Shown piece by piece: positions 3,844 to 55,266 of a stretch of 61,046 nucleotides of DNA. Each line of letters starts with the position of its first letter. The stretch's first letter is position 1. The notes under the pieces are model-generated. The model saw only the letters and a program-made list of their open reading frames with translations. It did not search any database and was not told the origin of the DNA. The position numbers were made by a program, and so were the translations under genes. This DNA is from Oscillospiraceae bacterium (GTDB lineage Bacteria; Bacillota; Clostridia; Oscillospirales; Oscillospiraceae): contig JAFQBN010000038.1 in assembly GCA_017416685.1 (NCBI GenBank), positions 1 through 61,046 on the forward strand. Direction: 5' to 3'.

Positions 3844-5826
3844 TTATTGATCCAGATATTCGTCGATGGCCTGATGGAGCAGCTGCTCCACCTCGTCCAC
3901 GGACCTGCCGGTGATCTGACCGCCGGCAGCGGCTGCGTTGCCGCCGCCGCCCAGCTTTTCCAGAATGACCTGCACGTTCAAATCGTCCAGAATGGAGCGG
4001 GCGGAAATGGTGACCTGCTCCCCATCGGGGAACATGACAAAGGAGGCGTTCACGCCCACAATGTTCAAAAGCTCGTCTGCGGCCTGTGCGGCGGTGACCC
4101 GGCCCACAGTTCGGTCGGACACCGCGATGGCGATGCCGGGACGGTAGATTTGCGCGTTTTGGATAAGAGCGTACTTGGCAACTGTGGAATCAAAGTCGTT
4201 TTGGAACACTTTTTTCACGTCGCCGGTGTCGGCACCGCTGCGGCGCAGGAAGGCCGCCGCTTCGAAGGTGCGGCCGCCGGTGCGCAGGGTGAAATTCTTG
4301 GTATCCAGTACGATACCGGCCAGCAGAGCCTCCGCCTCGGTGCGCAGCAGGTCGGCAGGCTCCATGATATACTGGGCCAGCTCCGCCACCATTTCGCTGG
4401 CGGAGGAGGCGTAGGGTTCGTGGTAGTTCAGGGCCGCACCCTCGATATAGGTAGCGGCGCGGCGGTGGTGGTCGATGACCGCCACCCGGTTGCAGGACTC
4501 CAACAGCTCCGCCGCCTGCACCTGATCGGGGCGGTTGGTGTCAACCACCACCAGCAGGGAGCGGGAGTCGGCGATGAGCAGGGCATCCTGGGCGGAGAGG
4601 AAGCAGTCATTGTACTGCTCCAGTTCCTCCAGCTTGTCGGTCATGATTTTGGAGGGGGAAGCGCTGTCGCGGACAATGTGGGCGGGAACGCCCAGCTTGC
4701 GGGCAATGGCGCATACGCCGGCGGCGGCGCCGGAGCAGTCCAGATCGGGGAAACGGTGGCCCATGACGAACACCCGGGACGAATCGCTGATGAGGGAGGA
4801 CAGGGCGTTGGCCATGACACGGCTTTTCACCTTGGTGCGCTTTTCCACCTCGGTGGAGCGGCCGCCGTAGAACTCAAAGTTAAAGCGGTTGCGGATGACG
4901 GCCTGATCGCCGCCCCGGGACAGGGCCATGTCCAGCGAGAGGTTGGCAAACTGCAGCAGTTCCTGCAGGCTGTCGGCATCCTTACCGATGCCAACGGACA
5001 GGGTGGCCTCAATGCCGTTGGGGTTGACCACTTCATGGACCAGGTCCAGAATTTCAAACTTCTTGTCTATGAAAGAGGACAGGTACTGTTCCTGGAAGAT
5101 GAACAGGTAGCGGTCGCGCTCCAGCCGGCGCAGGACACCGTGGGCGTGTTCCGTCCAGGAATCCAGATGGTTGTTGATCTCGCTCAGGAGCAGGGAACGC
5201 TGGTTTTCGTTCAGCCCCTTCATCAGATCTTCGTAGTTGTCCAGCAGGATCAGGGCGGCGATGGGGCGGGTGGCCTCCAGCGTCTGGCGGCTGATGGAGT
5301 ATTCGGTCACGTCCACCCAATAAGTAGTGGCCAGCAGGCTGGTGCCCTTGTCACCGGTGCGGATCATGTGGCCAAAAACCAAAAAGCGGCGGCCGGCAAA
5401 CGTGACCTCACCGGGGAACTCGCTCTTGCCCTCCATGAGCCAGCGGCTGTCGAAGCCGGGAACCAGTTCGCTGAGCTTGAAATCGTATACCTGATCGCCC
5501 CGGTCACTCAGGTGCAGGAAGCGGTCGTTGCTCCACACGATCTCGTCCCGGTCAGGGCGGAAGATCAGCATGGGCAGGGGGGAGTTGACGACACTTTCTT
5601 TGCTTGCCTCACCCACCGAGCCGGTCAGGTTATCGATGTACTTGGCAATCTCGCGCTTGCGGCGGCGGGAGGTGTAGCGCAGGTGCAGGGCGATAATGAG
5701 AATGGCCGCACCCTGTGCTGCGGCCAGATAGACGTTGAAAAACGAACTGACTACCGCAAACAGGACAAGACAGATGAAATACAGGGCATAACTCGGCTCC
5801 AGAAGCCGGGACAGTTTCTTGTTCAT
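3844..5826 (-). CDS. gdpP: Cyclic-di-AMP phosphodiesterase GdpP (DHH family)
   Basis: A 660-residue membrane enzyme that degrades c-di-AMP to pApA and so tunes osmotic and cell-wall homeostasis. Two N-terminal membrane helices (about residues 13-48) are followed by a PAS-like region, a degenerate GGDEF domain (LSVGIGKDADSLQELL then SRGGDQAVIR), and the catalytic DHH/DHHA1 half with MGHRFPDLDCSGA, VVDTN, VIDHHRRA and GGGGNAAAAGGQI. The usual His of the GGGGH motif appears as Asn here. The start at 5826 follows AAGGAGGGGATCAC. It is the first gene of the gdpP-rplI-dnaB-tilS-hpt run. Confidence 0.93.
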   Translation of the reverse strand: MNKKLSRLLEPSYALYFICLVLFAVVSSFFNVYLAAAQGAAILIIALHLRYTSRRRKREIAKYIDNLTGSVGEASKESVVNSPLPMLIFRPDRDEIVWSNDRFLHLSDRGDQVYDFKLSELVPGFDSRWLMEGKSEFPGEVTFAGRRFLVFGHMIRTGDKGTSLLATTYWVDVTEYSISRQTLEATRPIAALILLDNYEDLMKGLNENQRSLLLSEINNHLDSWTEHAHGVLRRLERDRYLFIFQEQYLSSFIDKKFEILDLVHEVVNPNGIEATLSVGIGKDADSLQELLQFANLSLDMALSRGGDQAVIRNRFNFEFYGGRSTEVEKRTKVKSRVMANALSSLISDSSRVFVMGHRFPDLDCSGAAAGVCAIARKLGVPAHIVRDSASPSKIMTDKLEELEQYNDCFLSAQDALLIADSRSLLVVVDTNRPDQVQAAELLESCNRVAVIDHHRRAATYIEGAALNYHEPYASSASEMVAELAQYIMEPADLLRTEAEALLAGIVLDTKNFTLRTGGRTFEAAAFLRRSGADTGDVKKVFQNDFDSTVAKYALIQNAQIYRPGIAIAVSDRTVGRVTAAQAADELLNIVGVNASFVMFPDGEQVTISARSILDDLNVQVILEKLGGGGNAAAAGGQITGRSVDEVEQLLHQAIDEYLDQ

Positions 5827-20348: not shown

Positions 20349-21278
20349 ATGTTGACCGCAAAATACATATCTGACCGCGTGAGCGCGTTTGTGAAAAGCG
20401 AGATCAAGGTTTACCCCTGCAATAATCTGCGCGCCAGCAACATCGGCCACCCCTGCGAGCGGTACCTGTATCTGCTTATCAAGCATTGGGACGAGCAAAA
20501 ACCCCACGACGAGGGCTTGCAAAACATCTTCGACTTTGGCAACAGCGTGGAGGAGTACACGATCCAAAAGCTGAAGAACAGCGGCCTGGAAGTGGTTACT
20601 CCCACCGTGCGCAGCTGGAAAGTGGAGAACCCCTTTATTACCGGGCGCGAGGACATCCGCATCAAAGACCCGGACGACGGGCAGCTGTACCCGGCAGAGA
20701 TCAAGGGCCTTTCCCCTTATGAGTGGGAGCGTCTGAACACCGTGGAGGACTTCTACAACAGCAAGAAGCATTATGTAAGGGCCTATCCATCCCAGTTGCT
20801 TGTGTACTGCTGGAAGTTCGAAAAGGAAAAAGGCTTTTTTATCTTGACCAACAAGCTGACCGGCGAGTTGAAGATCATCGAAGTTCCCTTTGACTGGGAT
20901 CGCGCGGACGCGCTGCTGAAAAAGGGCGAGCGCGTATACGCCGCCCTGGCGGATCCCACCGGAAAGACCATCCCCGCAGCGTGCGAGGATATTACCGTGT
21001 GCGAGAAATGCGGTCTGTGCCATCTGTGTACGGCCCAGATCGAGCGCCCGGACATGGACGTGGACGACGGCGAACTGGAGGCACTGATCGACGAGAAAAC
21101 GGCCCTGAAACCCTACGTTGACCAGCACAAGAAGCTGGACGAGGAAATCAAGAAAAAGGTTGGTGAACGGGAAAAGGTACTGGCTGGCAAGTATGTTGTC
21201 ACAGCAAAGACCATTTCCAAGCAGGCATATACTGTTGCCGCGAGAGTGGAGCGCCGCTTGACCGTTTCACGCCTTTAA
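20349..21278 (+). CDS. PD-(D/E)XK nuclease
   Basis: A 309-residue nuclease of the Cas4/RecB-like superfamily: RASNIGHPCERYLYL at the N-terminus, ITGREDIRI (about residue 97) and PAEIKGLSPYEW (about residue 115) supplying the D and E-x-K residues, and a cysteine cluster VCEKCGLCHLCTAQ near residue 218 that may bind a metal or Fe-S centre. It starts five bases after the annealing-protein gene, supporting a joint recombination role. Confidence 0.82.
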   Translation: MLTAKYISDRVSAFVKSEIKVYPCNNLRASNIGHPCERYLYLLIKHWDEQKPHDEGLQNIFDFGNSVEEYTIQKLKNSGLEVVTPTVRSWKVENPFITGREDIRIKDPDDGQLYPAEIKGLSPYEWERLNTVEDFYNSKKHYVRAYPSQLLVYCWKFEKEKGFFILTNKLTGELKIIEVPFDWDRADALLKKGERVYAALADPTGKTIPAACEDITVCEKCGLCHLCTAQIERPDMDVDDGELEALIDEKTALKPYVDQHKKLDEEIKKKVGEREKVLAGKYVVTAKTISKQAYTVAARVERRLTVSRL

Positions 21279-21290
21279 GGAGGCGCAGCT

Positions 21291-22175
21291 ATGATCCCGT
21301 GGATACAGGTATATTCGAACCTGCCCCAACACCCCAAGACAACCAGGCTGGCGGACGAGCTTGGCTTGACGAGCGCAGCGCTGAACCCCAACGTGCTGGC
21401 TGTCGGTATGGTGGTCAGCCTTTGGGCCTGGGCCATACAGAACGCCCATGACGGCGATCTGTCCGGCTGTTCCGCGCGAGCCATAGCCGATGCCTGCCAG
21501 TGGAAGAAGAAGCCGGAGACGCTCGTAAAAGCCCTGCACAATGCTGGCTTCCTGGATGCAGACATGAAACTGCACAACTGGGACGATTACACCGTGATGT
21601 ATCAGGACTTGCAGGAGGACAGCAAAATAAAGCACCGGGAGCGTCAGCGCAGATACCGCGAAAAGAAAAAAGGTGACGTCACGGTGACGTCACCTTGTGA
21701 CGAAAGTGACGCGATACCTAACCAAACCAAACCAAACCTAACCAATATATTCTCTGGTGGTGATGATGCGCGTGCGCGTGCGCAAGAGGACGTGAGCTTG
21801 TTTGCCCAGTCCCGTGATTTGGACATGGATGCGTATTTCGGCGTGACACCGGAAATCCGTGCCAAGGTGGACGCACTCACCCAGGAGATATTTAACCGGT
21901 TTACCACTCGGCAGCCTACGCAGATAGATCAGGCACACGTGTTCCGGTCTGTCATGGAGCAAAGCGTGGAGCCGGAATGGAGCGTGTGTCTGAGTGAGAA
22001 CCGTAAAGGGCTGTTGCTGTACGCCTGTGAGGCGGCGGCAAAGGCGGGAAAACCGGGCGACTGGAATTACATCGACGGGGTGCTGGTCCGTTTGCATCAG
22101 CGCGGAATAAGCACTCTGGACGAAGCAGAGGACTACGACATCAGCCGCGATCAGGCTCGCGGCGGCACTGACTAA
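21291..22175 (+). CDS. Phage replication initiator (replisome organizer type)
   Basis: A 294-residue protein with an N-terminal winged-helix region (MIPWIQVYSNLPQHPKTTRL, then a HKRERQRRYREKKK-like basic stretch near residue 115), a low-complexity linker, and a C-terminal helical domain that may bind the helicase or its loader. Like lambda O, the linker-coding DNA holds a cluster of iterons and an AT-rich tract (21672-21752), the probable origin. It starts after AAGGAGG. No dedicated phage helicase is visible, so host DnaB is probably recruited. Confidence 0.72.
   Translation: MIPWIQVYSNLPQHPKTTRLADELGLTSAALNPNVLAVGMVVSLWAWAIQNAHDGDLSGCSARAIADACQWKKKPETLVKALHNAGFLDADMKLHNWDDYTVMYQDLQEDSKIKHRERQRRYREKKKGDVTVTSPCDESDAIPNQTKPNLTNIFSGGDDARARAQEDVSLFAQSRDLDMDAYFGVTPEIRAKVDALTQEIFNRFTTRQPTQIDQAHVFRSVMEQSVEPEWSVCLSENRKGLLLYACEAAAKAGKPGDWNYIDGVLVRLHQRGISTLDEAEDYDISRDQARGGTD
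21672..21752. other. Putative phage replication origin inside the initiator gene
   Basis: GGTGACGTCAC, GGTGACGTCACC, TTGTGACGAA and AGTGACG stand close together at 21672-21711. A run of TAACCAAACC-type repeats (21718-21743) and the AT-rich AATATATTCT follow. Iterons plus an unwinding tract in the linker part of an initiator gene is the lambda-type origin layout. Confidence 0.55.
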
Positions 22176-23421: not shown

Positions 23422-24030
23422 ATGGAAAACTACATCAACATTTGCGGTCAGCGGATCGAATTGACCGCCGAACAGGTGGAGCAGCTTAAGAGCGGTCTCG
23501 GCCTTAATCAAGTCCGACTGGCAGACATTGCAGTGAAGGATACCTTCAAGATCGGCCAGCATGAGTTTGTCGTTCTGGAACATTCAGGCGACACTACCGC
23601 GGTGATCCGCAAGGACCTTTTGGTGGAGCGAAAGGAATTTGGAGAGAACAACAACTATGCCGGCTCTTATGTCGAAGAGATCTGCAACCAGTTTGGCGCA
23701 GAGATCGAGGCTGTGATCGGCAAGGAGAACCTGGTGGAATACACCGTGGACCTGACGAGCGACGATGGCCTGAAAGACTACGGCAATATCCGCCGCCGGG
23801 TCTCTCTGCTGACGGCTGACCTGTACCGCCGGTATGTTGAGGTTCTTGATGAACACAAGCCGGACAAATGGTGGTGGCTGGCGACACCATACAGTACTCC
23901 CAAGCATGAGAACGACAGCTGGGTCAAGTGCGTCGCGCCGTCCGGCTACGTCAACTACTACTACTGCGACTACGGCCGCGGCGTGCGCCCGTTTTGTATC
24001 TTAAAATCTAATATCTTTGTATCGAAGTGA
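23422..24030 (+). CDS. Diversity-generating retroelement target protein 1
   Basis: A 202-residue protein whose C-terminal half is a C-type-lectin-like (DUF6273-type) domain: WWWLATP near residue 153, CVAPSG, then the variable positions and RGVRPFCIL. The variable repeat VR1 occupies residues about 170-190 and matches the template repeat except at template adenines. The N-terminal part is a separate helical domain. No signal peptide or membrane helix is present, so it is cytoplasmic or virion-borne. Stable lectin folds like this tolerate many surface substitutions and display ligand-binding diversity. Confidence 0.88.
   Translation: MENYINICGQRIELTAEQVEQLKSGLGLNQVRLADIAVKDTFKIGQHEFVVLEHSGDTTAVIRKDLLVERKEFGENNNYAGSYVEEICNQFGAEIEAVIGKENLVEYTVDLTSDDGLKDYGNIRRRVSLLTADLYRRYVEVLDEHKPDKWWWLATPYSTPKHENDSWVKCVAPSGYVNYYYCDYGRGVRPFCILKSNIFVSK
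23929..23992 (+). repeat. Variable repeat VR1
   Basis: Sixty-four bases aligned without gaps to template 24997-25060. In the 33-base adenine-rich core there are 9 differences, every one at a template A; all C, G and T positions are conserved. The invariant GGCGTGCGCCCGT tail marks the end of the exchange tract. Confidence 0.92.
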
Positions 24031-24043
24031 AAGGAGCATTCTT

Positions 24044-24595
24044 ATGAACCAGACCAATGAAATCAAGCGAGTCCTTTTCCCCGGCGTAAAAGATGGCGAC
24101 ACCTTCACGGTGGCCGGCATGGAGTTCATCAAATTCCCCGCCACGGCCGCTGGCACTCCTGTGGTAGCAAAGAACATCGTCTTCCGCTCTGAGTTCGGCC
24201 ACAACAACCATTTGGCCGAGAGCTGCGTGCTGGAGAAGATGAAGGCAGAGGTCCTGCCCAAGATCGTGGAGGCGTTGGGAGAGGAAAACGTGCTGCTCTT
24301 CAAAACCGACCTTACCACGCTGGATGGCTTGACACCTTACGAGGCCCTGGAGTCCAAAATCAGCCTGCCCACCTTGGACTTCTACCGGGCGAACGTCGAC
24401 ATCTTCGACCGGCACAAAGTCTGTGGCTGGTGGTGGCTGGCCACCCCTGAATCCGCACGTCCGCACGATGCCCCTGAGTGGACTCTTTGCGTCGCGCCGT
24501 CCGGCTGCTTCAACTACTACTACTACGGCGGCGACCGCGGCGTGCGCCCGTTTTTGCTCTTTGAATCTTCTATCTTTGGATCTTCTGAGGAGTAA
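24044..24595 (+). CDS. Diversity-generating retroelement target protein 2
   Basis: A 183-residue paralogue of target 1 with the same architecture: WWWLATP, LCVAPSG, variable residues, RGVRPFLLF. The N-terminal domains of the two proteins have diverged (they share only scattered motifs such as DLT.LDGL.PY and FDRHK-like stretches), while the VR flanks stay nearly identical. The ATG at 24044 follows AAAGGAGC and lies 13 bases after target 1. Like target 1 it lacks an export signal. The tail is acidic (SSEE). Confidence 0.88.
   Translation: MNQTNEIKRVLFPGVKDGDTFTVAGMEFIKFPATAAGTPVVAKNIVFRSEFGHNNHLAESCVLEKMKAEVLPKIVEALGEENVLLFKTDLTTLDGLTPYEALESKISLPTLDFYRANVDIFDRHKVCGWWWLATPESARPHDAPEWTLCVAPSGCFNYYYYGGDRGVRPFLLFESSIFGSSEE
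24484..24551 (+). repeat. Variable repeat VR2
   Basis: Sixty-eight bases aligned without gaps to template 24993-25060. In the core there are 10 differences, all at template adenines, and they form a different pattern from VR1. This is direct evidence of past adenine-specific mutagenic retrohoming. Confidence 0.92.
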
Positions 24596-24597
24596 CG

Positions 24598-24966
24598 ATG
24601 GCTGACAACGACCTGAAGGTTATCGTCAAGGCAAAAGAACTTGCGGTCCACTCCTTCAAACTGACCTCGAACTGCAATCGATATCCCAAAAAGTACCGTC
24701 ACTCCCTGGTTGATCGGATACAGGTCAAGAGCCTGGATATATACGATACCCTGTTTGAAGCCAACCGTATTAACAACATTACTCATAAATGGGAGCGGTG
24801 CGAAGCTATCACGAGAGCAATTACCTTTTGTGATCAGCTGATGTTTTACATAGAGCTGTCCATGAGCCTCGGTTTGCTGAGCGATCAATCAACAGCCTAC
24901 TGGTCCAAGATGGTATCTGATGTAAAGTTTATGTCCATTGCGTGGAGGACCAAGGAGCGCAAGTGA
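24598..24966 (+). CDS. avd: Avd-like accessory variability determinant
   Basis: A 122-residue, basic, all-helical protein matching the four-helix-bundle Avd family: KELAVHSFKLTSNCNRYPKK, YRHSLVDRIQVKSLDIYDTL, then two more helices. Avd pentamers bind the retroelement RNA and reverse transcriptase and are needed for mutagenic cDNA synthesis. It sits between the second target and the template repeat, the usual order. Confidence 0.87.
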   Translation: MADNDLKVIVKAKELAVHSFKLTSNCNRYPKKYRHSLVDRIQVKSLDIYDTLFEANRINNITHKWERCEAITRAITFCDQLMFYIELSMSLGLLSDQSTAYWSKMVSDVKFMSIAWRTKERK

Positions 24967-24992
24967 ACACCTTAGGCTGTGCGTTGTATTTT

Positions 24993-25060
24993 TCTTTGCG
25001 TCGCGCCGTCCGGCAACATCAACAACAACTACTACGACAACGACAACGGCGTGCGCCCGT
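24993..25060 (+). repeat. Template repeat (TR)
   Basis: The invariant donor of the retroelement: an AAC-rich core (17 adenines in 33 bases) encoding mostly Asn, Tyr and Asp codons, between the constant GTCGCGCCGTCCGGC and GGCGTGCGCCCGT. AAC codons maximise the range of residues reachable by adenine substitution without creating stops. It lies between avd and the reverse transcriptase in a 198-base non-coding gap. Confidence 0.93.
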
Positions 25061-25164
25061 ACTGGTGGAATGTTCGACAGAGTAGGCATAAGCCGAAATC
25101 AATACGCCACATCAAAAGAATGCACAACCTTTCCGGAAGGATAAACAAAAAGGGACTGTGTTGC

Positions 25165-26220
25165 ATGACCGAGTTTGAGAAAGTAATCGACTTCAACAAT
25201 ATGTACCGAGCGTTTCGCAGGGCTAAGTGCGGGAAAGGGTATAAAAAGAGTTCGGCGCGGTTCAATCTGACGGCGCTGGATGGCGTGAATGCCCTAATCG
25301 CCCAGCTGAAGGACAAGACCTACAGGGTTTCGGACTATAACGAGTTCAAGGTCTACGAGCCCAAGGAGCGCGTGATCCAGACGACCTCTTTCAAGGACAA
25401 GGTCATACAGCACAGTCTATGTGATAACGTGATTATGCCACGGCTGCAGCGTGTTTTTATCCGAGACAACTGCGCCGGGCAGAAGGGGAAAGGCACTCTG
25501 TTTGGCCTAGACCGGCTCAGCGAACAGATGGTGCAGTTCCACAAGAGATACGGCTTTCGTGGCTACATCCTGAAGTGCGACATTGCGAAGTTTTTCTATA
25601 ACATCTCTCATGAGCAGCTGAAGGATATTGTGGCGCATTACTTTGGGAGCGACCCGGACATTTGCTGGTTGTGCAATCTGTTCATTGACAGCACGCAGGG
25701 CAAGGGTATCCCGCTGGGCAATCAGATCAACCAGGGCTTTGCCTTGCTCTACCTGGATGGAATGGACAAGGTGATAAAGTACGAACTTGGTATTGAGTAC
25801 TACGGCAGATATATGGACGACTTCTATCTGATCCACCCGAGCAAAGCCTATTTAAGGCACTGTCTTGAGGTGATAACGGAGTATCTCGAAACGCTGGACC
25901 TGACACTGAACGGAAAGACGCAGATCTTTCCATTCAAGAACGGCGTCAATTACCTGGGCTTTCATACGCATATCGCCTCCAGCGGGAAGCCAATCCGCCG
26001 ATTAAAGAACCAGAACAAGCGCAATGCGCAAAAGAAGTTTGTGCGGATGGCCAAGCTGGTTGCAGCCGGTAAGCTGCCGGAGGAGAAGTTCTCCGCTTCG
26101 TATAATGCCTGGAAAAACCATATATCCCACGGGAATTGCTATGGGCTTGGAGAAGCCACGGACAAGAAAATAAGTGAAATTTTGAAAAACAATATTCCGA
26201 CTACGGAGGAGCGTCCATGA
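25165..26220 (+). CDS. Retroelement reverse transcriptase
   Basis: A 351-residue group-II-like reverse transcriptase of the diversity-generating class: fingers motifs KVYEPKERVIQTTSFKDK, motif A LKCDIAKFF (Asp139), QGKGIPLGNQINQG (motif 4) and the catalytic RYMDDF (Asp218-Asp219), then a thumb and a short basic C-terminus. No maturase or endonuclease domain is present. It copies TR RNA with errors at adenines. ATG 25165 follows AAAGGGA; the frame extends upstream through the TR but no ribosome site precedes it there. Confidence 0.95.
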   Translation: MTEFEKVIDFNNMYRAFRRAKCGKGYKKSSARFNLTALDGVNALIAQLKDKTYRVSDYNEFKVYEPKERVIQTTSFKDKVIQHSLCDNVIMPRLQRVFIRDNCAGQKGKGTLFGLDRLSEQMVQFHKRYGFRGYILKCDIAKFFYNISHEQLKDIVAHYFGSDPDICWLCNLFIDSTQGKGIPLGNQINQGFALLYLDGMDKVIKYELGIEYYGRYMDDFYLIHPSKAYLRHCLEVITEYLETLDLTLNGKTQIFPFKNGVNYLGFHTHIASSGKPIRRLKNQNKRNAQKKFVRMAKLVAAGKLPEEKFSASYNAWKNHISHGNCYGLGEATDKKISEILKNNIPTTEERP

Positions 26221-26332: not shown

Positions 26333-26770
26333 ATGGCTGAGATAAAAAAGCTGGTGTTCAACCCGGATGCAGCGGAGGAATACTTCTCCATGCTCCTAAC
26401 TTCCTACCAGGACACCGGGAACGATATTTTTCGCAGGGACAACGAGGGACGGCATGCCTCCGAGCAGCATTACTCTGCCGAGTACCAGAAGTACATCGGT
26501 ATGCAGATAGCCATGCGGGAAGTGCTGAAATACTTTGGCAAGTATGATCTAGGCGGCTGGATCAGCGCGAAAGACCAAACCCCGAAGGAGTGGAGGAAGC
26601 CGAACGGCGACATGATAAATTATCTTATTTTTGCGCCGGAGTTCGGTGTTGACATAGGAAACTATGCAGAACCTGCAAAAACGTGGGTTTGCGTGGGCAT
26701 TCCGTGTAACGTAACTCATTGGAAACAACTTCCGGATGGGCCGAGGGATGAAGAGAATGGGACTGAATAG
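26333..26770 (+). CDS. DUF551-domain protein
   Basis: A 145-residue phage protein. The C-half has the DUF551 pattern: WISAKDQTPKE near residue 75, a central strand pair, and VTHWKQLPDGPRD near the end. DUF551 proteins are frequent in phage early operons and have no assigned function. It overlaps the next frame. Confidence 0.75.
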   Translation: MAEIKKLVFNPDAAEEYFSMLLTSYQDTGNDIFRRDNEGRHASEQHYSAEYQKYIGMQIAMREVLKYFGKYDLGGWISAKDQTPKEWRKPNGDMINYLIFAPEFGVDIGNYAEPAKTWVCVGIPCNVTHWKQLPDGPRDEENGTE

Positions 26771-27224
26771 CCAAGATATAGCCCGCCTCGGGCCACGTGC
26801 GCAGAAGCAGCTGCTACAAAAGCTGGGGGCGCAGCAGCGTCAAAGGCAGTCCAAGTACAACAACGAACCTACCACCGTGAACGGTATCAAGTTCGACAGT
26901 AGGAAAGAGGCACGCCGCTATGAGGAACTCATGGTGATGCAGCGTGCCGGGGAGATCAAAAACCTGCGCTTGCAAGCCCAGTATACCCTCCAGGAGAGCT
27001 TTATTACTCCGGAGGGAACACGGATACGCGCGATCAAATACGTGGCTGACTTCGCTTACGACAGGCGCAATAAGCCCAGCCGGAACCAGCCAGACCTGAA
27101 CGAACCCATCTATTGGACACACGTTGTTGAGGACGTGAAAAGTCGCGCCACCAAAACACCTCAGTACGAAATAAAAAAGAAACTGATGTATGAAAAGTTC
27201 CGAATTGAAATTCGGGAAGTTTGA
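26757..27224 (+). CDS. DUF1064 endonuclease-like protein
   Basis: A 155-residue basic protein: a positively charged N-terminus, then VNGIKFDSRKEARRYEEL (E-x-R-R-Y) and HVVEDVKSRATKTPQYEIKK, the D/E-x-K core of the PD-(D/E)XK fold found in DUF1064. Related phage proteins are proposed Holliday-junction resolvases acting before packaging. The ATG at 26757 follows CGAGGG; starts at 26736 and 26748 are also possible. Confidence 0.78.
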   Translation: MGLNSQDIARLGPRAQKQLLQKLGAQQRQRQSKYNNEPTTVNGIKFDSRKEARRYEELMVMQRAGEIKNLRLQAQYTLQESFITPEGTRIRAIKYVADFAYDRRNKPSRNQPDLNEPIYWTHVVEDVKSRATKTPQYEIKKKLMYEKFRIEIREV

Positions 27225-28116: not shown

Positions 28117-28629
28117 ATGGCGAAAAAAAGCAAATACGAAACCCACGTGCTGCCTAACCTGGGGAAAATCGAGGTTTGGGCAAAAAAGGGAGCAACGGCA
28201 AAAGAGATTGCTGCAAACCTGAAAATCGCGTATTCCACGTTCAGAAAGTATCTGGATGATGGGGAGAACGGCGATGAGAGGTATTCGGCACTTTCGGCTC
28301 TTTACGTGCACGCGTGCGAGGTTCCCGATCAGGAAGTGGAAGCCTCGCTATACAAGCTGGCCAACGGCTACACTGCACAGGTCGCCAAGACATTCAAGGT
28401 CAAGACGGTGGAATATGACGAGACTACCGGAAAGAAAATCCGGGAGTATGAGGAACTGAAAACAGGCATTGACGAGGTACACGTGCCTGCCAATGTTACC
28501 GCCCAAATGTTTTGGCTGGCAAACCGCGTTCCCGACCGCTGGAAATACAAACCGGAGGCCGAGCGCGAGAACGACGACGAGGGAACCGGCATCGTGATAA
28601 TCCCGGAAGTGGGTGCTGCCGATGTATAA
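28117..28629 (+). CDS. terS: Terminase small subunit
   Basis: A 170-residue DNA-recognition subunit: an N-terminal helix-turn-helix (WAKKGATAKEIAANLKIAYS, TFRKYL) and a C-terminal part ending in KYKPEAERENDDEGTG that would contact the large subunit. It directly precedes terL and overlaps it by eight bases. The ribosome site GGTGG is weak, hinting at low expression, which is normal for TerS. Confidence 0.82.
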   Translation: MAKKSKYETHVLPNLGKIEVWAKKGATAKEIAANLKIAYSTFRKYLDDGENGDERYSALSALYVHACEVPDQEVEASLYKLANGYTAQVAKTFKVKTVEYDETTGKKIREYEELKTGIDEVHVPANVTAQMFWLANRVPDRWKYKPEAERENDDEGTGIVIIPEVGAADV

Positions 28630-30130
28630 AGTCACGTTTATCGAGGGCAAACCCCACAAGGAAACCTGGGCTGAAATGGCAAAGAACGCCCATGTGATTT
28701 GGCGACCCCAGCCGAGACAGGCAGCGTTTATGGCGCGCCCGGAGTATGAAGCTCTGTACGGTGGGGCAGCCGGAGGCGGAAAGAGCGACGCCATTATCAT
28801 TGAGGCACTGCGGCAGGTACATATTCCGCATTACAAGGGACTGATCCTGCGCAAGACATTCCCCCAGTTGGCGGAGCTGATTGACAAGAGCCTGAACTAC
28901 TATCCGCGCGCATATCCGAAAGCCAGGTACAACGGCAGCAATCACACCTGGACATTCCCCAGTGGAGCAAAAATCATCTTTGGCTCCATGCAGTACACCA
29001 AGGATAGGACGAAATACCAAGGACAAGCCTATGACTTCATAGCCTTTGACGAGTTGACGCACTTTACCTGGGAGGAATATAGCTACATGTTCTCCCGAAA
29101 CCGACCAAACGGACCGGGTACCCGCGTCTATATCCGGGCATCGGCCAACCCCGGTGGCGTGGGCCACGGATGGGTGAAGGAACGCTTTATAACAGCTGCA
29201 AAGCCTATGCAGACTGTGACGGAGGACGTGGTGTGGCGTGATCCAGGGGGCAGAGAGAACCGTAGCACGCAGACGCGCATATTTGTTCCGTCCAGCGTCT
29301 TTGATAACCCGGCTCTGCTGGATAATGACCCACAGTACGTCCAGCGCCTTGCCAGTCTCCCGGAGGCAGACAGAAACGCGCTGCTTTACGGCGACTGGGA
29401 CACATTCAGCGGTCAGGTATTCACAGAGTGGCGCAACGACCACGACCACTACGCAGACCGCACGAATACTCACGTTATTTCTCCGTTCCCCATTCCGGCA
29501 GACTGGGCAATTTGGTGCGGCCTGGACTGGGGCTATTCCCGCCCATTCTCTGTGGGCTGGTATGCCGTTGACCACGACAGGCGCATGTACCGAATACGTG
29601 AACTGTACGGCTGTACCGGTGAGCCGAACACCGGCGTTCGCTGGGAGCCGTCTGCGGTAGCCAGGAAGATCAAGGAGATAGAGGCTGAGGACGTGAACCT
29701 GAAAGGGCGAATAATCCACCGCGTAGGTGACCCCGCAATCTGGGGCAGCGACGGTACCGAGAGCATCGGCGCATTGATGGAGCGTGAGCGCGTGTACTTC
29801 GAGAAAGGCGACCACGCCCGCATCGATGGCAAGATGCAGCTACACCATCGGTTGACCTTTGACGAGAACGGTTGGCCCATGCTCTATGTCTTTGAAACCT
29901 GCAAGCACTTTATACGCACGGTGCCGAACCTGGTCTATGACGAAACTAACGTGGAGGACATCGACACCGACGGCGAGGACCACATTTACGACGAGTGCCG
30001 GTATGTGTGTATGAAAAACCCGATTGCACCCAGGCCGAAACCCATTGTCAAGCCGAAACCATACGACCCGCTGGATTTGGGACAAGACCTGGCCGGGTAC
30101 GACCGCTACGAATTTTACCGAAAGTATTGA
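28622..30130 (+). CDS. terL: Terminase large subunit
   Basis: A 502-residue packaging motor. The ATPase domain has Walker A YGGAAGGGKSD and Walker B YDFIAFDELTH, followed by the ASANPGG coupling motif. The C-terminal RNase H-like nuclease has CGLDWGYSRPF and further acidic residues (GDPAIWG, DEC). It pumps DNA into the prohead through the portal. ATG 28622 is preferred over GTG 28613. Confidence 0.93.
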   Translation: MYKVTFIEGKPHKETWAEMAKNAHVIWRPQPRQAAFMARPEYEALYGGAAGGGKSDAIIIEALRQVHIPHYKGLILRKTFPQLAELIDKSLNYYPRAYPKARYNGSNHTWTFPSGAKIIFGSMQYTKDRTKYQGQAYDFIAFDELTHFTWEEYSYMFSRNRPNGPGTRVYIRASANPGGVGHGWVKERFITAAKPMQTVTEDVVWRDPGGRENRSTQTRIFVPSSVFDNPALLDNDPQYVQRLASLPEADRNALLYGDWDTFSGQVFTEWRNDHDHYADRTNTHVISPFPIPADWAIWCGLDWGYSRPFSVGWYAVDHDRRMYRIRELYGCTGEPNTGVRWEPSAVARKIKEIEAEDVNLKGRIIHRVGDPAIWGSDGTESIGALMERERVYFEKGDHARIDGKMQLHHRLTFDENGWPMLYVFETCKHFIRTVPNLVYDETNVEDIDTDGEDHIYDECRYVCMKNPIAPRPKPIVKPKPYDPLDLGQDLAGYDRYEFYRKY

Positions 30131-35542: not shown

Positions 35543-35626
35543 CCGCGAGACACAAAACGCGGCTGCGACACGGCGCAGCGAGGTTTGGAGAGGACCCACC
35601 TTTCCGGCTTCGCTGCGCCGTTTTGT
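35543..35626 (+). promoter_or_regulatory. Terminator/antiterminator leader element A
   Basis: GCTGCG (35562-35567), loop ACACGG and CGCAGC (35574-35579) form a 6-bp hairpin. The same 3' strand is also needed for a stronger stem CGGCGCAGCGA (35571-35581) with TCGCTGCGCCG (35610-35620) followed by TTTT. The two cannot coexist, the hallmark of an attenuator. The sequence and layout match element B at 47221. Confidence 0.62.
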
Positions 35627-35650
35627 ATGAAGAAGAAAGGAGATGATGAT

Positions 35651-36624
<974 letters not shown>

Positions 36625-36625
<1 letters not shown>

Positions 36626-48783: not shown

Positions 48784-51700
48784 ATGGCAACGATTGCGGA
48801 ACGGATCAACAAGGCGAAGCAAGATAATAGCAAAGCGAATGGGAACAAGACCTCCGCTTTGTCCATTGAAGAACGTATCAAGATGGCAAAGCAGGACGGC
48901 GGGAAAGTTGAGTCGAATGTGCCGCAACGCCCTGCGATACCTGCAGCAACCTCTGTAGCTGCCACCGGTTCTGTAGAACCGGTGGCGGGTGGGAGTAGCT
49001 TGGACGAGTTGCTGTCCCAGCGCACCCACGTGCAGAACGAAAAGGAGAGTTGGCGCAATAAGGCCAACTGGCTTGTCGGTGGTGGTCCGGCAAAGGAAGG
49101 CATCACCTTTGTTCCGCAGGGCGCCATCGATGAGGCGTGGGAGCGCTACAACATGTACGACCAGTGGGAAAAGGAGCTGGACGAGCAAATCGCGCAGGCC
49201 CACGCTGCCCCCGGCGCACTGGAACAGGCCAAGGCGGAGGGCGCCCACCTGCTGGATGCCGGTGCGCGCGAACAAAAGAAAACTGCCGTGCGCACCAAGG
49301 CGCAGGCGGACGCGGACAGGCTGGCCAGCTACACTTCCGCTGCCCCTGGCTCCGACCTGCAGAACATGGCGCTGCTGCTTGCCGGCGCGTCCGGGAAGGA
49401 AACGGCAGAGAAACGCGCCAAGGAGCTGGACTTCGTAGGCGAGCGACTGGAGGACACCTACACCGCGGATGGATTTTGGGGTGGCCACATCGGGCAGTTT
49501 GAAGCGAATAATGACCTGGGCCGCATCAACCAAGAGTCCGGCGAGGCGTGGGACGATTACCTGCTTAACCCCACCGAGGAAAATCGGGAGCGGGCCTTTA
49601 TGTACGCGGCCCTTGCCGAGAAGGTGGCGGGCAACGCCGAAGATGCGCTGAATTATAACAGCAAAGCTAAGTGGCTAACTCAAAGCGTGGCCGGATACCT
49701 GCCCCAGTGGTGGGACCAGACGAAGGCACAGGTCGAGGGCGGCGTGGCGGGTGCTGTCGCCGGTTCCCTGGGCGGTGCCGGCGGCATGATCACCGGGGCG
49801 CGACTGGGCGCCACCGCCGCCAGCAGCCGGGAAAGCTATCACAATATGCGCGGGCAGGCATTCCGCGACCTTGTAATGATGGGCGTGGACGAGGTAACCG
49901 CCAGAGAGGCGGCCAACGACGAGGCGTTTCTCTCTGCGCTTATTGAGGGCGCCGAGACCTACATCTCGTTTGGTGCGCTTGGCTTTGACGAATTGGTGAG
50001 CATGTTTACCGGAGCGGCGAAGAAGGCCGGTGCGAAGGGATTGACCACAAAGCTGCTGAGCAAGCTGCCTGCCAAGTGGCAGCCGGTGGCAAAGGTTGGC
50101 ATGGGTACCGTGAAGAACGCAGCAACGGAATACGCCGAGGAGTTCGCACAACAGGGCGTATCCATCGCCAACCAGCGGCGCATAGAGGCCAACGGCGAGA
50201 CCGGAATGCTGGACCTTGCGGGAGAGACTGCCAAGGTGTTTGGCGGCGCAGTGACTGGGCGGGACGCGGAGGCCCTTGGGCAGATGCACGAGGCCGGAAC
50301 GCAGGGCGCCATTCTTGGCGCATTCGGTGCCGGGACCTCGCAGGTGGTTAACCAGGCCGCTGCCGCCGTGGTGTCTCACGCGCGAGCCAAGCTCGACCCG
50401 CTGGCGCAGGCAATGATCGGCAAGAACGAACAGAACGACAGTACCCCCACCAACGACAGCGGCGATATTGCGGCGGAGATTGTGAACGCCGGCGCTACCG
50501 AGGTGGAAGCCGAAAAGCTGGCTCCCATCCTGACCGCTGTGCTGACCGGCGAGGAGATCAGTGGCAATCAGGCAGGTGCTATTGCCAAGAATAGTGCTGC
50601 TGTTTCCGTCCTGGAAAGTGCCACCGGCGAGGCAATCAACACCGATGCCCCGCTGGGAGAGATTAAAACCACCATTCGCAGCCTTGCAAGCCGCCGTGGG
50701 ACGCAGGGAGCGCAGACGGTGGCCGAGGACACCCCCGCGCAGGTGCCGCCCGCAGCGGCGCAGGAAACGGCCTTTTCACGGACTCGTTCCGGACAGATGG
50801 CTGTCAAGGAGTTTGCGGCCACTCTGGGCAAAGCTGGCGAAAAGGTCTTCAACGATATGTACGATGGGGAGCAGAATGCGGCATCCTACGTTGATGCTAT
50901 GATGAAAGCCTATAACGCCGGTAAGAACGGAGACTCCCTAGAGAGTATTTCTACCCCTGGTTCAAATCCTATGCAGACCCGGGCAGCCTATGTGGCCGGC
51001 CAGGCGGATGCAACGCGGACGGAACAGGCTGCTTACTTCGGCAAGGATGCGGGGGTGGTTGAGGACCCTATGCTGAAAAGAGCTAACCTGCGCAGCAAGG
51101 ATCGGAGGATGCTGGATGCTGTAGGCAAGGTGGCCGGAGTTAAGGTGCGCTTTGTGGACAAGCTGACGGACGAGAGCGGACGACCTGCCAATGCGCAGTA
51201 TGGAAACGGGGAGCTGCTGATCGCGCTTGATACGGCTGACCCGGTTCGGGTGGCCTTTACCCATGAGATCGTGCACCGGATGCGTGAGGTGTCGCCGGAG
51301 GCGTATAACGCGCTGGCTACCTTCGTGCAGCAGAACATGAATTCAGACAGCATGGCCGTTGTTCGGCTGGCATACAGTGAAGCTTACGGCACCGACTCCG
51401 ATGTACTGAGCGAGGAAATCGTGGCGCAAGCCGTTGGTCAAATGATGAGTGACAGTGCTGTGCTGGAACAGTTTGTGAAGGATGACCGGAATGCGGGACA
51501 GAAATTGTTAGATGCCATCAAAGATATGATCGCTGCCATTAAGCGGGTGCTGAATGGGCAGAATGTGACGCTGACTGCGGAACAGAAAGCGGACTTTGCC
51601 GAACTGCAGGCCAACCTGGAGGGGATGTCTAATGTCCTGGATACAGCCCTGAAGCAGATGGAAGTGGACGTGAAGAACAACACCAAGGAGGGCAATAAAA

Positions 51701-54700
51701 ATACCGCCACAGAGGGCGGCGAGGTGAAGCATGCCTTTAAGGGGTATGACCCAGAAACCGGGCGGGGAATCTATCAAAGTAATTTTCCTCTTGGGACGAC
51801 AAAGAAAGAAAAGGCAACGCGCATTCTAAGTTTTATACAGAATGTTTGGAGCAAAAAACCAATCGAACTGGTGGTAGAAGAAAACGGCGAAAAAAAAGTT
51901 ATTCAGGCGCAGTTTGATCCAACTTATGACGAAGATCCCAGAGTACAAACAGATGCGTCTAAAATAATGGGTGGAAATCGCCACGGGAATGCTTCGGACA
52001 AGCGAGTTACACTGAATCTTGCGGATGACTATTACAAGATTGCATCTGAGGCTGTGTACAATGGATTCAAAAACGAAACAGGCAAGGATGGCCCGACACA
52101 TAAAGATGTGACGGTGTGGCGCTACTTTATCAACGATATTCTGTATCAGGAATATGGCGAAGAAGCCGCTATGCCTTATCGTATGACAGTAAATGTGAAA
52201 CAGCGGAGCGATGGCCACTTTGTATACAGTTTTAATGCAGAGAGAGATAATGGACAATTTCAAAGCGATGTTGGCGGAACTGGACAAAACAAAAGGTCGA
52301 GCACCCGACAGACTTTACATGCTGCCGTGACGCACGCCAATGAGGGCGTGGGCAATGCTCAACCTAATAGTATTATATCCGTGGAAGACACAAAAATCAA
52401 CCCCCAAAATTCAGACGAAAAAAATTCCCTCGTTGTGGCTCGCAGCAAAGCGGCGGAGACGCTGCGCCAGGAGTTGGCCAGTATCAGAGAAGAGGGAATG
52501 AGGACGGGCAAGGATGCAGCGGAAATCGAATACGAGGTACAGCAGGCTATCGAGCGGTCGTACGAGTCGCTGGTCGATGAATACGGTGCGATTCCCACCG
52601 GTGAAAATCCCGCCCGCGACGTTCGGGTGCCGAAGCGTACCGCGGACAATCAAAAAGTCTCACAGACGGTGCGCACCATTTTGGAAGCGAAAGCCACGCC
52701 GGATGTAGCCATTCCTACTATTGAGGAACTAACGGCAACGGGGGACTTCTCCTATGAGGTCTACACGGACAAGCAGGCTATGGCCGATGCGGATAACACC
52801 ATTCGGGACAAGGGCTATAACACCGCACTGATGGACTGGACGAAATCGGTGCAGGAGGGCGAGGTGTCCAAGAGCAACACCGCTCTGGGCTGGGCACTTT
52901 ACAATCAGGCGGCCAATGCCGGCGATTTGAAAACGGCTATGGCCATCCTGACCGGTATGGTGGGACACCAGCGTAACGCGGCACAGGCCGTGCAGGCAAC
53001 TCGCATTCTCAAAAAGATGTCCCCGGAAGCGCGGTTGTATGGTGTGCAGCGGAGTGCGCAGAACCTTGCGGAGGAACTGGAGAAACGCTACGGCAAGGAT
53101 GCGCCGGACATTCGGGTGAATGAGGAGCTGGCCCGGAAATACCTGGAGGCGGAGACGGACAAGGAGCGGGAGGAAGCTATGCGCAACCTGTACCGCGATC
53201 TTGGCCGGCAAATGCCTTCCCGGTTTATCGACAAGTGGAACGCGTGGCGGTACTTGGCCATGCTGGGAAATCCTCGTACCCACGTGCGAAATGTGCTTGG
53301 CAACGCCTTTTTTGCCCCGGTAGTGGCAGCCAAGAATATGACCGCTATGGCCATCGAGGAAGCTGTGTACCGGGTGTCCGGCGGGAAACTGGAACGGACC
53401 AAGGGTTCTGTTGGCTTTGGCAAGCAGAGTCGTGAGTTGCTGAGTGCCGCGTGGTCGGATTACGAGTCAGTGGCGGATCAGGTGAGCAGCGGCGGAAAGT
53501 ACAGCGATCTTGACCACAGCAACCAGTACATCCAGGAGGGACGCCGCATCTTTAAGAACCGTGCGCTGGAGGCGGCTCGCAAGGGCAACAGCGCCGCACT
53601 GGAAGCGGAGGATATGTGGTTTAGCCGCCCGCACTATGCCTATGCGTTGGCGCAGTATTGCAAGGCGCACGGCATTACGGCAGAGCAAATGAAAAACGGG
53701 AAAGGATTGGATCGCGCCCGGGCCTATGCAATCAAGGAGGCACAGAAGGCCACTTACCGGGACACCAACGCTTTTTCCCAAACCATCAGCGAGCTGGGAC
53801 GCTACCGTGGAAACAACAAGGTGAAGAAAGGCGTAGGCGTGGCGCTGGAGGGCATTCTGCCCTTCCGCAAGACTCCGGCCAACATCCTTGTGCGCGGTTT
53901 GGAGTACAGCCCGGCAGGTTTCTTGAAGGGCTTGTTTTGGGATGTTTGGCAAATCAAGTCGGGAAAGAAAACGGCGGCTGAGGTCATCGACCACATTTCC
54001 GCAGGCCTGACGGGTAGCGGGTTGTTGGCGTTAGGTGCATTTCTGGCGGCGCAGGGGCTGGTACGTGGCGCCGGCGGAGATGATGAGGAAAAAAAGGAGT
54101 TCGAGGAGCTTCAGGGACATCAGACCTACGCTATGGAACTGCCTGGTGGTACGAGTGTGACACTGGACTGGCTTGCTCCGGAAGCACTGCCGTTCTTCGT
54201 TGGCGTGAACCTGTGGGAGCAGAAGGCGGGCAACAAGGATGGTGGAGTGACCCTGTCGGACATTCTTACGGCCACTGCCAACGTGACGGAGCCGTTGCTG
54301 GAACTGAGTTGCCTGCAGAGCCTGAATGATGTGTTTGACGCGGTTGGCTATGCGGCCTCGGACGGATTGCCGGCGCTGCCCTCCGCATTGGCGAGCGCGG
54401 CGACCAGTTATCTTACCCAGGGATTCCCCACAATCCTCGGACAGGCCGAGCGTACCGGAGAAGACAAGCGCATGTCCACCTACACGGAGAAGAATGCGTT
54501 CCTGACCCCGGATATACAGTACACGATCGGACGAATCAGCGCACGGCTGCCTGGTGTGGACTATCAGCAGATACCCTACATTGATGCATGGGGACGGACG
54601 GAGAATACCGGTACCGGGGTGGAGCGTGCGGGGAACAATTTCCTTAACCCGGCCTATACGTCCACGGTGGAGACTAGTCCGATGGAAGATGAACTGCTAC

Positions 54701-55266
54701 GGCTGTATGAGCAGACCGGAGAGGGGAGTGTGCTGCCGTCCAGAGCGGCCAAGTATTTCAACGTGGATGGGGAACGCAAAGATCTAACGGCGCAGGAATA
54801 TGTGAAGTACGCCACAGCCAAAGGCCAGACGGCGTACAAGGTGCTGACGGCGCTGACCGGGTCCCAGGCGTACCGGAAAATGAGCGATGCCGAGAAGGCG
54901 GAAGCAGTTGGTTTGGTGTATGATTACGCCAATGCCACCGCCAAGACAAAGGTGAGTGCGTACAAACCGGAAGGCTGGATTGCCAAGGCGGTCAAGACGG
55001 AAAAGGCTGCCGGGGTAAAGGCGGAACAGTACGTGACGCTGTATTTGGCTCAAAAGAACATCGAGTCGCTGAAAGAAGCGGACGGCGATACCATTGCCAA
55101 CAGTAAGAGCCTGCTGGTGATGGAGATGGTCTATGATGTCAAGGGGCTGACAGACGCGCAGAGACTGGCGCTGTTTGAGGACTTTGGCGTGGGCAAGAGC
55201 GTAATCCACTACAACAAGACGCTGGTGCAGGTGAAACTGAACGAGATGAGGCGGAAGGCTGGGTAA
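48784..55266 (+). CDS. Giant polyvalent/injected protein, 2160 residues
   Basis: One uninterrupted frame after a TTGGAGG site. N-third: charged helices, then a Gly/Ala-rich membrane-active stretch at about residues 319-345 (GVAGAVAGSLGGAGGMITGA). A zinc-protease motif FTHEIVHRMR lies at residues 825-834. Residues about 980-1215 resemble a large-polyvalent-protein-associated domain (GGTGQNKRSSTRQTLHAA, INPQNSDEKNSL) and are notably AT-richer than the flanks. The C-third has a second hydrophobic segment (about 1740-1765). Such proteins are packaged and injected early. It is the last prophage gene. Confidence 0.72.
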   Translation: MATIAERINKAKQDNSKANGNKTSALSIEERIKMAKQDGGKVESNVPQRPAIPAATSVAATGSVEPVAGGSSLDELLSQRTHVQNEKESWRNKANWLVGGGPAKEGITFVPQGAIDEAWERYNMYDQWEKELDEQIAQAHAAPGALEQAKAEGAHLLDAGAREQKKTAVRTKAQADADRLASYTSAAPGSDLQNMALLLAGASGKETAEKRAKELDFVGERLEDTYTADGFWGGHIGQFEANNDLGRINQESGEAWDDYLLNPTEENRERAFMYAALAEKVAGNAEDALNYNSKAKWLTQSVAGYLPQWWDQTKAQVEGGVAGAVAGSLGGAGGMITGARLGATAASSRESYHNMRGQAFRDLVMMGVDEVTAREAANDEAFLSALIEGAETYISFGALGFDELVSMFTGAAKKAGAKGLTTKLLSKLPAKWQPVAKVGMGTVKNAATEYAEEFAQQGVSIANQRRIEANGETGMLDLAGETAKVFGGAVTGRDAEALGQMHEAGTQGAILGAFGAGTSQVVNQAAAAVVSHARAKLDPLAQAMIGKNEQNDSTPTNDSGDIAAEIVNAGATEVEAEKLAPILTAVLTGEEISGNQAGAIAKNSAAVSVLESATGEAINTDAPLGEIKTTIRSLASRRGTQGAQTVAEDTPAQVPPAAAQETAFSRTRSGQMAVKEFAATLGKAGEKVFNDMYDGEQNAASYVDAMMKAYNAGKNGDSLESISTPGSNPMQTRAAYVAGQADATRTEQAAYFGKDAGVVEDPMLKRANLRSKDRRMLDAVGKVAGVKVRFVDKLTDESGRPANAQYGNGELLIALDTADPVRVAFTHEIVHRMREVSPEAYNALATFVQQNMNSDSMAVVRLAYSEAYGTDSDVLSEEIVAQAVGQMMSDSAVLEQFVKDDRNAGQKLLDAIKDMIAAIKRVLNGQNVTLTAEQKADFAELQANLEGMSNVLDTALKQMEVDVKNNTKEGNKNTATEGGEVKHAFKGYDPETGRGIYQSNFPLGTTKKEKATRILSFIQNVWSKKPIELVVEENGEKKVIQAQFDPTYDEDPRVQTDASKIMGGNRHGNASDKRVTLNLADDYYKIASEAVYNGFKNETGKDGPTHKDVTVWRYFINDILYQEYGEEAAMPYRMTVNVKQRSDGHFVYSFNAERDNGQFQSDVGGTGQNKRSSTRQTLHAAVTHANEGVGNAQPNSIISVEDTKINPQNSDEKNSLVVARSKAAETLRQELASIREEGMRTGKDAAEIEYEVQQAIERSYESLVDEYGAIPTGENPARDVRVPKRTADNQKVSQTVRTILEAKATPDVAIPTIEELTATGDFSYEVYTDKQAMADADNTIRDKGYNTALMDWTKSVQEGEVSKSNTALGWALYNQAANAGDLKTAMAILTGMVGHQRNAAQAVQATRILKKMSPEARLYGVQRSAQNLAEELEKRYGKDAPDIRVNEELARKYLEAETDKEREEAMRNLYRDLGRQMPSRFIDKWNAWRYLAMLGNPRTHVRNVLGNAFFAPVVAAKNMTAMAIEEAVYRVSGGKLERTKGSVGFGKQSRELLSAAWSDYESVADQVSSGGKYSDLDHSNQYIQEGRRIFKNRALEAARKGNSAALEAEDMWFSRPHYAYALAQYCKAHGITAEQMKNGKGLDRARAYAIKEAQKATYRDTNAFSQTISELGRYRGNNKVKKGVGVALEGILPFRKTPANILVRGLEYSPAGFLKGLFWDVWQIKSGKKTAAEVIDHISAGLTGSGLLALGAFLAAQGLVRGAGGDDEEKKEFEELQGHQTYAMELPGGTSVTLDWLAPEALPFFVGVNLWEQKAGNKDGGVTLSDILTATANVTEPLLELSCLQSLNDVFDAVGYAASDGLPALPSALASAATSYLTQGFPTILGQAERTGEDKRMSTYTEKNAFLTPDIQYTIGRISARLPGVDYQQIPYIDAWGRTENTGTGVERAGNNFLNPAYTSTVETSPMEDELLRLYEQTGEGSVLPSRAAKYFNVDGERKDLTAQEYVKYATAKGQTAYKVLTALTGSQAYRKMSDAEKAEAVGLVYDYANATAKTKVSAYKPEGWIAKAVKTEKAAGVKAEQYVTLYLAQKNIESLKEADGDTIANSKSLLVMEMVYDVKGLTDAQRLALFEDFGVGKSVIHYNKTLVQVKLNEMRRKAG

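Follow-up and report, generated by a model that had tools for sequence, protein, structure and literature searches.

A complete two-target diversity-generating retroelement in the early region of an Oscillospiraceae phage contig and the possible role of its small variable proteins

Phage diversity-generating retroelements (DGRs) are usually read as tools for host-receptor change. What, then, would be the use of a DGR whose targets are two small proteins encoded among early genes? The question is raised by the window analysed here, the entire 61,046-base contig JAFQBN010000038.1 of a 1.86-Mb Oscillospiraceae assembly (GCA_017416685.1); a search for terminal repeats of this contig found none. 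The window, from a gut phage, carries a DGR at positions 23422-26220 on the + strand, with target genes T1 and T2, the accessory gene avd, a template repeat (TR) and a reverse transcriptase (RT) in that order. Its identity as a DGR is beyond reasonable doubt, and it is complete, as a preliminary description had claimed: RT, Avd, TR and two adenine-restricted variable repeats (VRs) are all present. The novelty lies in the pattern: a cassette of the early region, complete in itself, whose two targets are small and soluble and which turns up again in different phage backbones. We tentatively propose that this DGR serves non-structural proteins throughout, as a mobile early cassette that would hypermutate two soluble lectin-like intracellular binders; their partners are perhaps variable host defence or nucleotide-metabolism factors. 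Statements on PMC10743442, PMC11792537, PMC8008677 and PMC8144416 refer to excerpts of these papers. The parts of the cassette are as follows.

23422..24030, + strand: T1, target 1, 202 aa, DUF6273-like, C-terminal VR (phrog_9958, 4e-39)
23929..23991, + strand: VR1, 9 of 63 positions differ from the TR, every one a template A
24044..24595, + strand: T2, target 2, 183 aa, T1 paralogue of a separate clade, C-terminal VR (phrog_9958, 4e-27)
24488..24550, + strand: VR2, 10 of 63 positions differ from the TR, every one a template A
24598..24966, + strand: avd, DGR accessory protein, 122 aa (phrog_3206, 2e-18)
24997..25059, + strand: TR, 17 adenines, none at codon position 3
25060..25164, + strand: TR-RT spacer, about 104 nt, strong sequence conservation
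25165..26220, + strand: DGR RT, 351 aa, YMDD

The TR and both VRs align without gaps over 63 nt. All nine mismatches of VR1 to the TR and all ten of VR2 fall on template adenines (chance probability 1.0e-6 and 1.5e-7), which bears out the earlier counts of 9 and 10 adenine-only differences; VR differences at non-adenine template positions, named in the preliminary description as grounds for rejecting it, were looked for in the window and make up 0 of the 19. The "33-base core" of that description is the variable middle of the repeat, whereas the full repeat spans 63 nt. Seven of the TR adenines stand at first and ten at second codon positions. Both VRs terminate in GGCGTGCGCCCGT, beyond which the VR and TR flanks diverge (a candidate initiation of mutagenic homology); the flanks of VR1 and VR2 3' of the repeat resemble one another. 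No third VR was found in the window, where the next best match shows 18 or more non-A mismatches over 65 nt; the 18-nt constant 5' end has three exact matches in the entire assembly, and a search for other viral contigs sharing the constant repeat ends found none. T1 and T2 are paralogous and have similar ends, but the explanation of the repeats as chance similarity or as ordinary duplicated gene ends without a DGR is refuted by the A-only pattern (19 of 19 differences at template adenines, adjoining an RT and Avd) and keeps practically no credence.

The Avd and YMDD RT described earlier downstream of the targets were confirmed by profile matches and intact frames. The RT matches RVT_1 (2.5e-13) and phrog_1423 (2e-105), and its best match among solved structures is 8ub7 ("Reverse transcriptase", 7e-27), which we take to be the BPP-1 DGR RT. 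Avd matches phrog_3206 ("Avd protein of DGR") and, weakly, Pfam 23S_rRNA_IVP (E 0.045). DGR RTs usually carry a GxxxSQ motif; the clade of the window RT carries GxxxNQ (GIPLGNQINQ in the window). Of 59 loci scanned, the pattern caught the motif in 40 (counting duplicates), and every one of these has NQ. The reading frames of T1, T2, avd and RT are intact, and by eye ribosome-site-like sequences precede T1, T2 and avd; the cassette therefore looks functional. The RT frame is open upstream from a GTG at 24979, through the TR, to 26220. Among 40 unique cassettes the TR lies in the RT frame in 22 and is in frame and open in 18. The TR-RT spacer is conserved in sequence (34 of the 40 unique sequences aligned) with a weak RNAalifold consensus (-9.1), and it probably makes up the 3' portion of the DGR RNA. 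Positions 25068-25182 match the Rfam RT-2 RNA (RF03077) with 28.1 bits (E 7e-4), below the gathering threshold of 40. Matches elsewhere were weaker (E 0.01 in locus L016 and 0.06 in L004, none up to E 0.1 in L006; loci and contigs are given L numbers throughout). This sub-gathering match hints that the RT-2 RNA may belong to the DGR RNAs.

RT-based scans collected 54 viral and 24 genome loci; from the locus lists, 80 of 88 loci were taken in one and 80 of at least 595 in another. The 16 genome loci with an RT of at least 72% identity are titled Oscillospiraceae or Clostridia. At this identity 57 loci were found, and 43 of them cover the start of the RT together with 1.8 kb or more of upstream sequence, giving 33 unique cassettes. 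Two VRs are present in 29 of the 33, so that two targets in series, called unusual in the preliminary description, are the rule in this family. L023 and L026 have one VR. In L027/L065 a T1 fragment stands immediately before the RT and T2, avd, TR and VR have no match, as if the cassette had been reduced by deletion. L077 has both target genes, and its TR was not found. Among the variants, L038 has two VRs with T2 7.5 kb upstream of the RT, and T1 of L041 looks frameshifted near its start. Tandem small targets before avd are also found in 11 loci with an RT of 48-60% identity (L137, L142, L145, L146, L150, L153, L158, L161, L166, L175 and L176), where one VR per locus was tested. At 56-59% identity, 15 loci, not all unique, have one VR (L043, L045, L046, L048-L052, L057, L071-L074, L078 and L081); L044 (59%) has two. 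A search of 63 other genomes of the same genus for a close cassette gave a best RT of 46% identity. L114 (MT839962, human gut) shows two T1-like genes in series at 4227-5589, followed by an avd-like gene at the contig end, and the tandem arrangement thus occurs in human gut phage DNA as well.

How the two VRs change was followed across these relatives. In a tree of 74 unique targets, whose bootstrap is not fully settled, the T1s and T2s form separate clades (support 98/93 and 100/99), which indicates that the T1/T2 duplication is old; L038 has one target in each clade and L044 falls outside both. Over 28 unique two-VR cassettes, the VRs depart from the template at 596 of 1116 template-A sites and at 15 of 2430 non-A sites. 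Three rows (L054, L060 and L070) had been dropped for more than two non-A mismatches, and with them the counts are 652 of 1236 and 40 of 2668. The non-A count is lowered because the VR-finding rule (no more than one non-A mismatch in 45 nt) favoured few such mismatches. The substitutions are A to G (328), A to T (235) and A to C (33). Sites mutated in both VRs of a cassette carry the same base in 86 of 170 cases, where 78-81 are expected. VR1 and VR2 are thus shown statistically to diversify independently, each being written on its own. Cross-talk between VR1 and VR2, considered for the five substitutions they share in the window, was dropped on the same near-expected identity over the 28 cassettes. 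Pairwise comparisons show the same restriction: between L028 and L068, VR1 differs at 9 of 22 A and 0 of 41 non-A sites and VR2 at 14 of 22 and 1 of 41, and between the window and L004 the VR changes are almost confined to A sites.

The bodies of T1 and T2 are conserved across the relatives and the VRs are variable. This, the retention of two VRs in 29 of 33 unique relatives and the intact frames of all four window genes argue against a selfish or vestigial cassette, formerly active in its lineages and of no present benefit to this phage. That explanation could draw on the finding of the cassette as a unit in different backbones, on identical cassettes with identical VRs, on the one-VR or reduced relatives (L023, L026, L027/L065) and on the apparent T1 frameshift in L041. 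We regard it as unlikely.

What the two targets are made of bears on what they could bind. T1 scores 22.3 bits against Pfam DUF6273, just under the cut-off of 23.5, and T2 has no match; at E ≤0.001 the domain is found in 24 of 29 T1 and 11 of 29 T2 sequences, window included. DUF6273 target domains have been modelled as C-type lectins (PMC10743442), and from the DUF6273 matches and these published models T1 and T2 are predicted to have a C-type lectin fold. Both belong to the small DUF6273 target family by phrog_9958 homology and a C-terminal VR. The earlier statement that they lack an export signal is supported by hydropathy, the highest 19-residue mean in the first 48 residues being 0.41 for T1 and 1.0 for T2. 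Domain profile searches found no attachment domain beside the single DUF6273-like domain. They differ from Mtd-like tail proteins in this respect and in being flanked by DNA-metabolism genes. They also depart from tentaclins, in which an N-terminal VR lectin domain is followed by Ig-like domains: in T1 and T2 (202 and 183 aa) the VR is C-terminal and no Ig domain was found. An N-terminal motif of T1 was discarded as a marker of other proteins; within the loci collected here it occurs in T1-type proteins, in the T1 fragment of L027 and in a single window ORF unrelated to them.

Two-target DGRs with DUF6273 targets have been published (PMC10743442, PMC11792537). Close to the window are nd4 and nd12 (PMC10743442), which have a small DUF6273 target, tgt2, with a C-terminal VR and homologous to T1 (32 and 36% identity). 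It lies away from the tail module, an Avd-like gene accompanies the RT, and one TR serves two VRs. In nd4 and nd12, however, the late region holds RT, Avd and TR beside a large tentaclin, and they serve the small target in trans, whereas in the window both targets are small and stand in tandem with avd, TR and RT, with no other VR found. A large DUF6273 target is likewise paired with a small one in Faecalibacterium phage Lelie and the candidate prophage CP11 (PMC11792537). Lelie's small target is a T1 homologue (28%), but the two Lelie targets, one of them large, are about 14 kb apart and the Lelie RT is 35% identical to the window RT. Bordetella phage BPP-1 shares RT, Avd, TR/VR and adenine mutagenesis; its one target, Mtd, is attached to the tail fibre and has separate attachment domains (in part from PMC10743442), unlike the two single-domain, early-region targets of the window. 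A non-structural DGR target has been proposed before, in Quimbyvirus (PMC8008677), where it lies among defence-related genes. There the RT is in three overlapping frames, one target belongs to the structural module and one is distal, and the inferred hosts are mainly Bacteroidetes.

The position of the window cassette is given by the following neighbours.

20349..21278, + strand: Cas4/RecE-like exonuclease, upstream of the cassette
21291..22175, + strand: replication initiation protein, upstream of the cassette
26736..27224, + strand: Holliday-junction-resolvase-like protein (DUF1064), downstream of the cassette
28117..30130, + strand: terminase small and large subunits, followed by portal and capsid genes
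35585..36625, + strand: late-module gene, tail-fibre-like, in which no VR was found

The cassette lies inside the DNA-metabolism region, since the DUF1064 resolvase-like gene follows it. The place between replication and packaging genes had also been called unusual, and the relatives show it to be conserved. Among 28 unique loci with an RT of at least 72% identity and at least 9 kb of sequence, a terminase was matched in 20 and not in 8. In 19 of the 20 it is downstream on the same strand, 1.8-9.3 kb past the RT, which makes 20 of 21 cases with the window included. The best terminase matches belong to four PHROG families, three of which cross-match, and the cassette flanks differ among relatives; the cassette recurs as a unit in different phage backbones. 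The large neighbours, picked for scanning by size and not as a full annotation, include DNA methyltransferases, ParB-like proteins, terminases, portals and unknown families. Tail and lysis queries, mostly from other phages, found tentaclin- or amidase-like genes only near L170, L179 and L180; their absence elsewhere is weak evidence, because tail genes diverge fast.

Homologues of T1 and T2 in other phages were examined for their surroundings. T1 and T2 share the family phrog_9958 with the target of L177 and the small target of nd12. The small targets of nd4, nd12 and Lelie have A-restricted VRs 11.7, 14.1 and 15.9 kb from the TR; they stand apart from the RT, which in the late region adjoins the large target. 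The nd4 small target stands beside an RNase_T-type exonuclease gene, that of nd12 0.9 kb after a Dam-type gene, and in the nd12-like contigs L188 and L190 a terminase follows 4.8 kb downstream. In L179, L170, L177, L178 and L161, helicase, helicase loader, primase or primase/helicase genes lie no more than 1.6 kb from the small targets. In several homologues a second domain is in frame with the target. A DUF3310/nucleotide-kinase-like domain precedes it in nd12 (2.5e-16; phrog_236, 4e-31) and L185 (9e-16), a Lar restriction-alleviation domain precedes it in L189 (3.3e-7), and in L177 a pyrophosphohydrolase-like phrog_2245 domain follows it (2e-17). The nd12 and L185 VRs differ at 14 sites, all of them template A (p 7e-10), against 60 of 808 positions outside. 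Compared with the nd12 TR, its own TR not being in hand, L189 differs at 16 of 24 A sites and 9 of 59 others. The excerpt of PMC10743442 notes the DUF3310-like part without deciding between a role in multimerisation and one as an interface to other proteins of the phage. The literature excerpts nowhere describe small DUF6273 targets as a recurrent feature of the replication region. Armadillo matches of the nd12 N-terminus were set aside as compositional noise, and PDB and Pfam searches with the L177 C-terminus gave nothing significant. A window gene at 18740-19327 matches nucleoside 2-deoxyribosyltransferase and NTP pyrophosphohydrolase (phrog_2245), the latter being the family joined to the L177 target.

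From what is known of the DGR family, RT and Avd would copy an RNA of the TR and the conserved 104-nt spacer, template adenines would be misread during copying (the A-only outcome is what the repeats display), and the cDNA would replace VR1 or VR2. The products would be two small soluble DUF6273 proteins with a variable C-terminal surface and a conserved remainder. The likeliest role of T1 and T2 would be to recognise a variable partner within the infected cell, e.g., a host defence or metabolic protein, and not a receptor on the host surface. We lean somewhat towards such intracellular early-region binders over tail receptor-binding proteins because the targets lie among replication and recombination genes, because the cassette moves with its own RT between different backbones, because T1 and T2 show no export signal, and because homologues are in frame with nucleotide-metabolism or restriction-alleviation domains.

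The strongest rival holds that T1 and T2 are virion-attached receptor- or mucus-binding proteins encoded off the tail genes, whose diversity widens adsorption as for BPP-1 Mtd. Tail-protein annotations predominate among the viral DGR targets of clades 1, 4 and 6 (PMC8144416), receptor binding was proposed for tgt2 (PMC10743442), the variable domain is of lectin type, and there are Hoc-like matches to phrog_10993. Against it stand the single DUF6273-like domain with no attachment domain found beside it, the early-region position conserved across different backbones, the in-frame intracellular-type domains of homologues, and the separation of the small target from the late-region RT that the large one adjoins in nd4, nd12 and Lelie. 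A virion role is possible, and on this balance we hold it to be rather doubtful.

Several observations nevertheless weigh against an actively diversified intracellular binder. Virion proteins can also be encoded outside the structural module. The variable ends match phrog_10993, "Hoc-like head decoration" (T1 1.5e-5, T2 0.0036), as do nd12 (1.4e-10) and L177 (5.5e-11), and the authors of PMC10743442 favour receptor or host binding for tgt2, with the DUF3310-like part perhaps an interface. Regarding position, the genes around the Lelie small target are mostly annotated hypothetical, the L179 target has a lysis-like gene on one side and a helicase on the other, and in L016 the terminase is upstream on the other strand. 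Regarding diversification, the TR for L177, L178 and L170 was not found in the available locus DNA, and L179 and L180 have an identical TR over the aligned part with a VR divergence no greater than that of the target bodies. The VR2s of L004 and L054 differ at 9 of 27 non-A sites, probably through an anchor misregister. Nine locus pairs (7 sets) with identical RTs also have identical VRs. Near-identical isolates were accordingly not used as evidence of activity, as identical cassettes have identical VRs and may be one phage assembled repeatedly. Finally, a ribosome site and ATG are found at the domain junction in nd12, L185 and L189. This weakens the reading of all three as clean fusions, since with an internal start the DUF6273 part may be produced as a separate protein too, or solely as one. 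A KELFNM junction is common to L189 (5935-6813, Lar) and L185 (4100-4975, DUF3310), as if the upstream domain had been swapped at the in-frame internal start.

If the proposed intracellular role is true, phages would carry an antibody-like search system aimed at intracellular targets. What the mutation of two different target genes is for, called unclear in the abstract of PMC10743442, would then become directly testable.

Farther along the window, at 48784-55266, lies an ORF of 2160 aa with no PHROG match at E ≤1e-4. In L011/L058 and L013/L041, sequence like that of this ORF lies downstream of the cassette at a distance of 6.9-9.2 kb.

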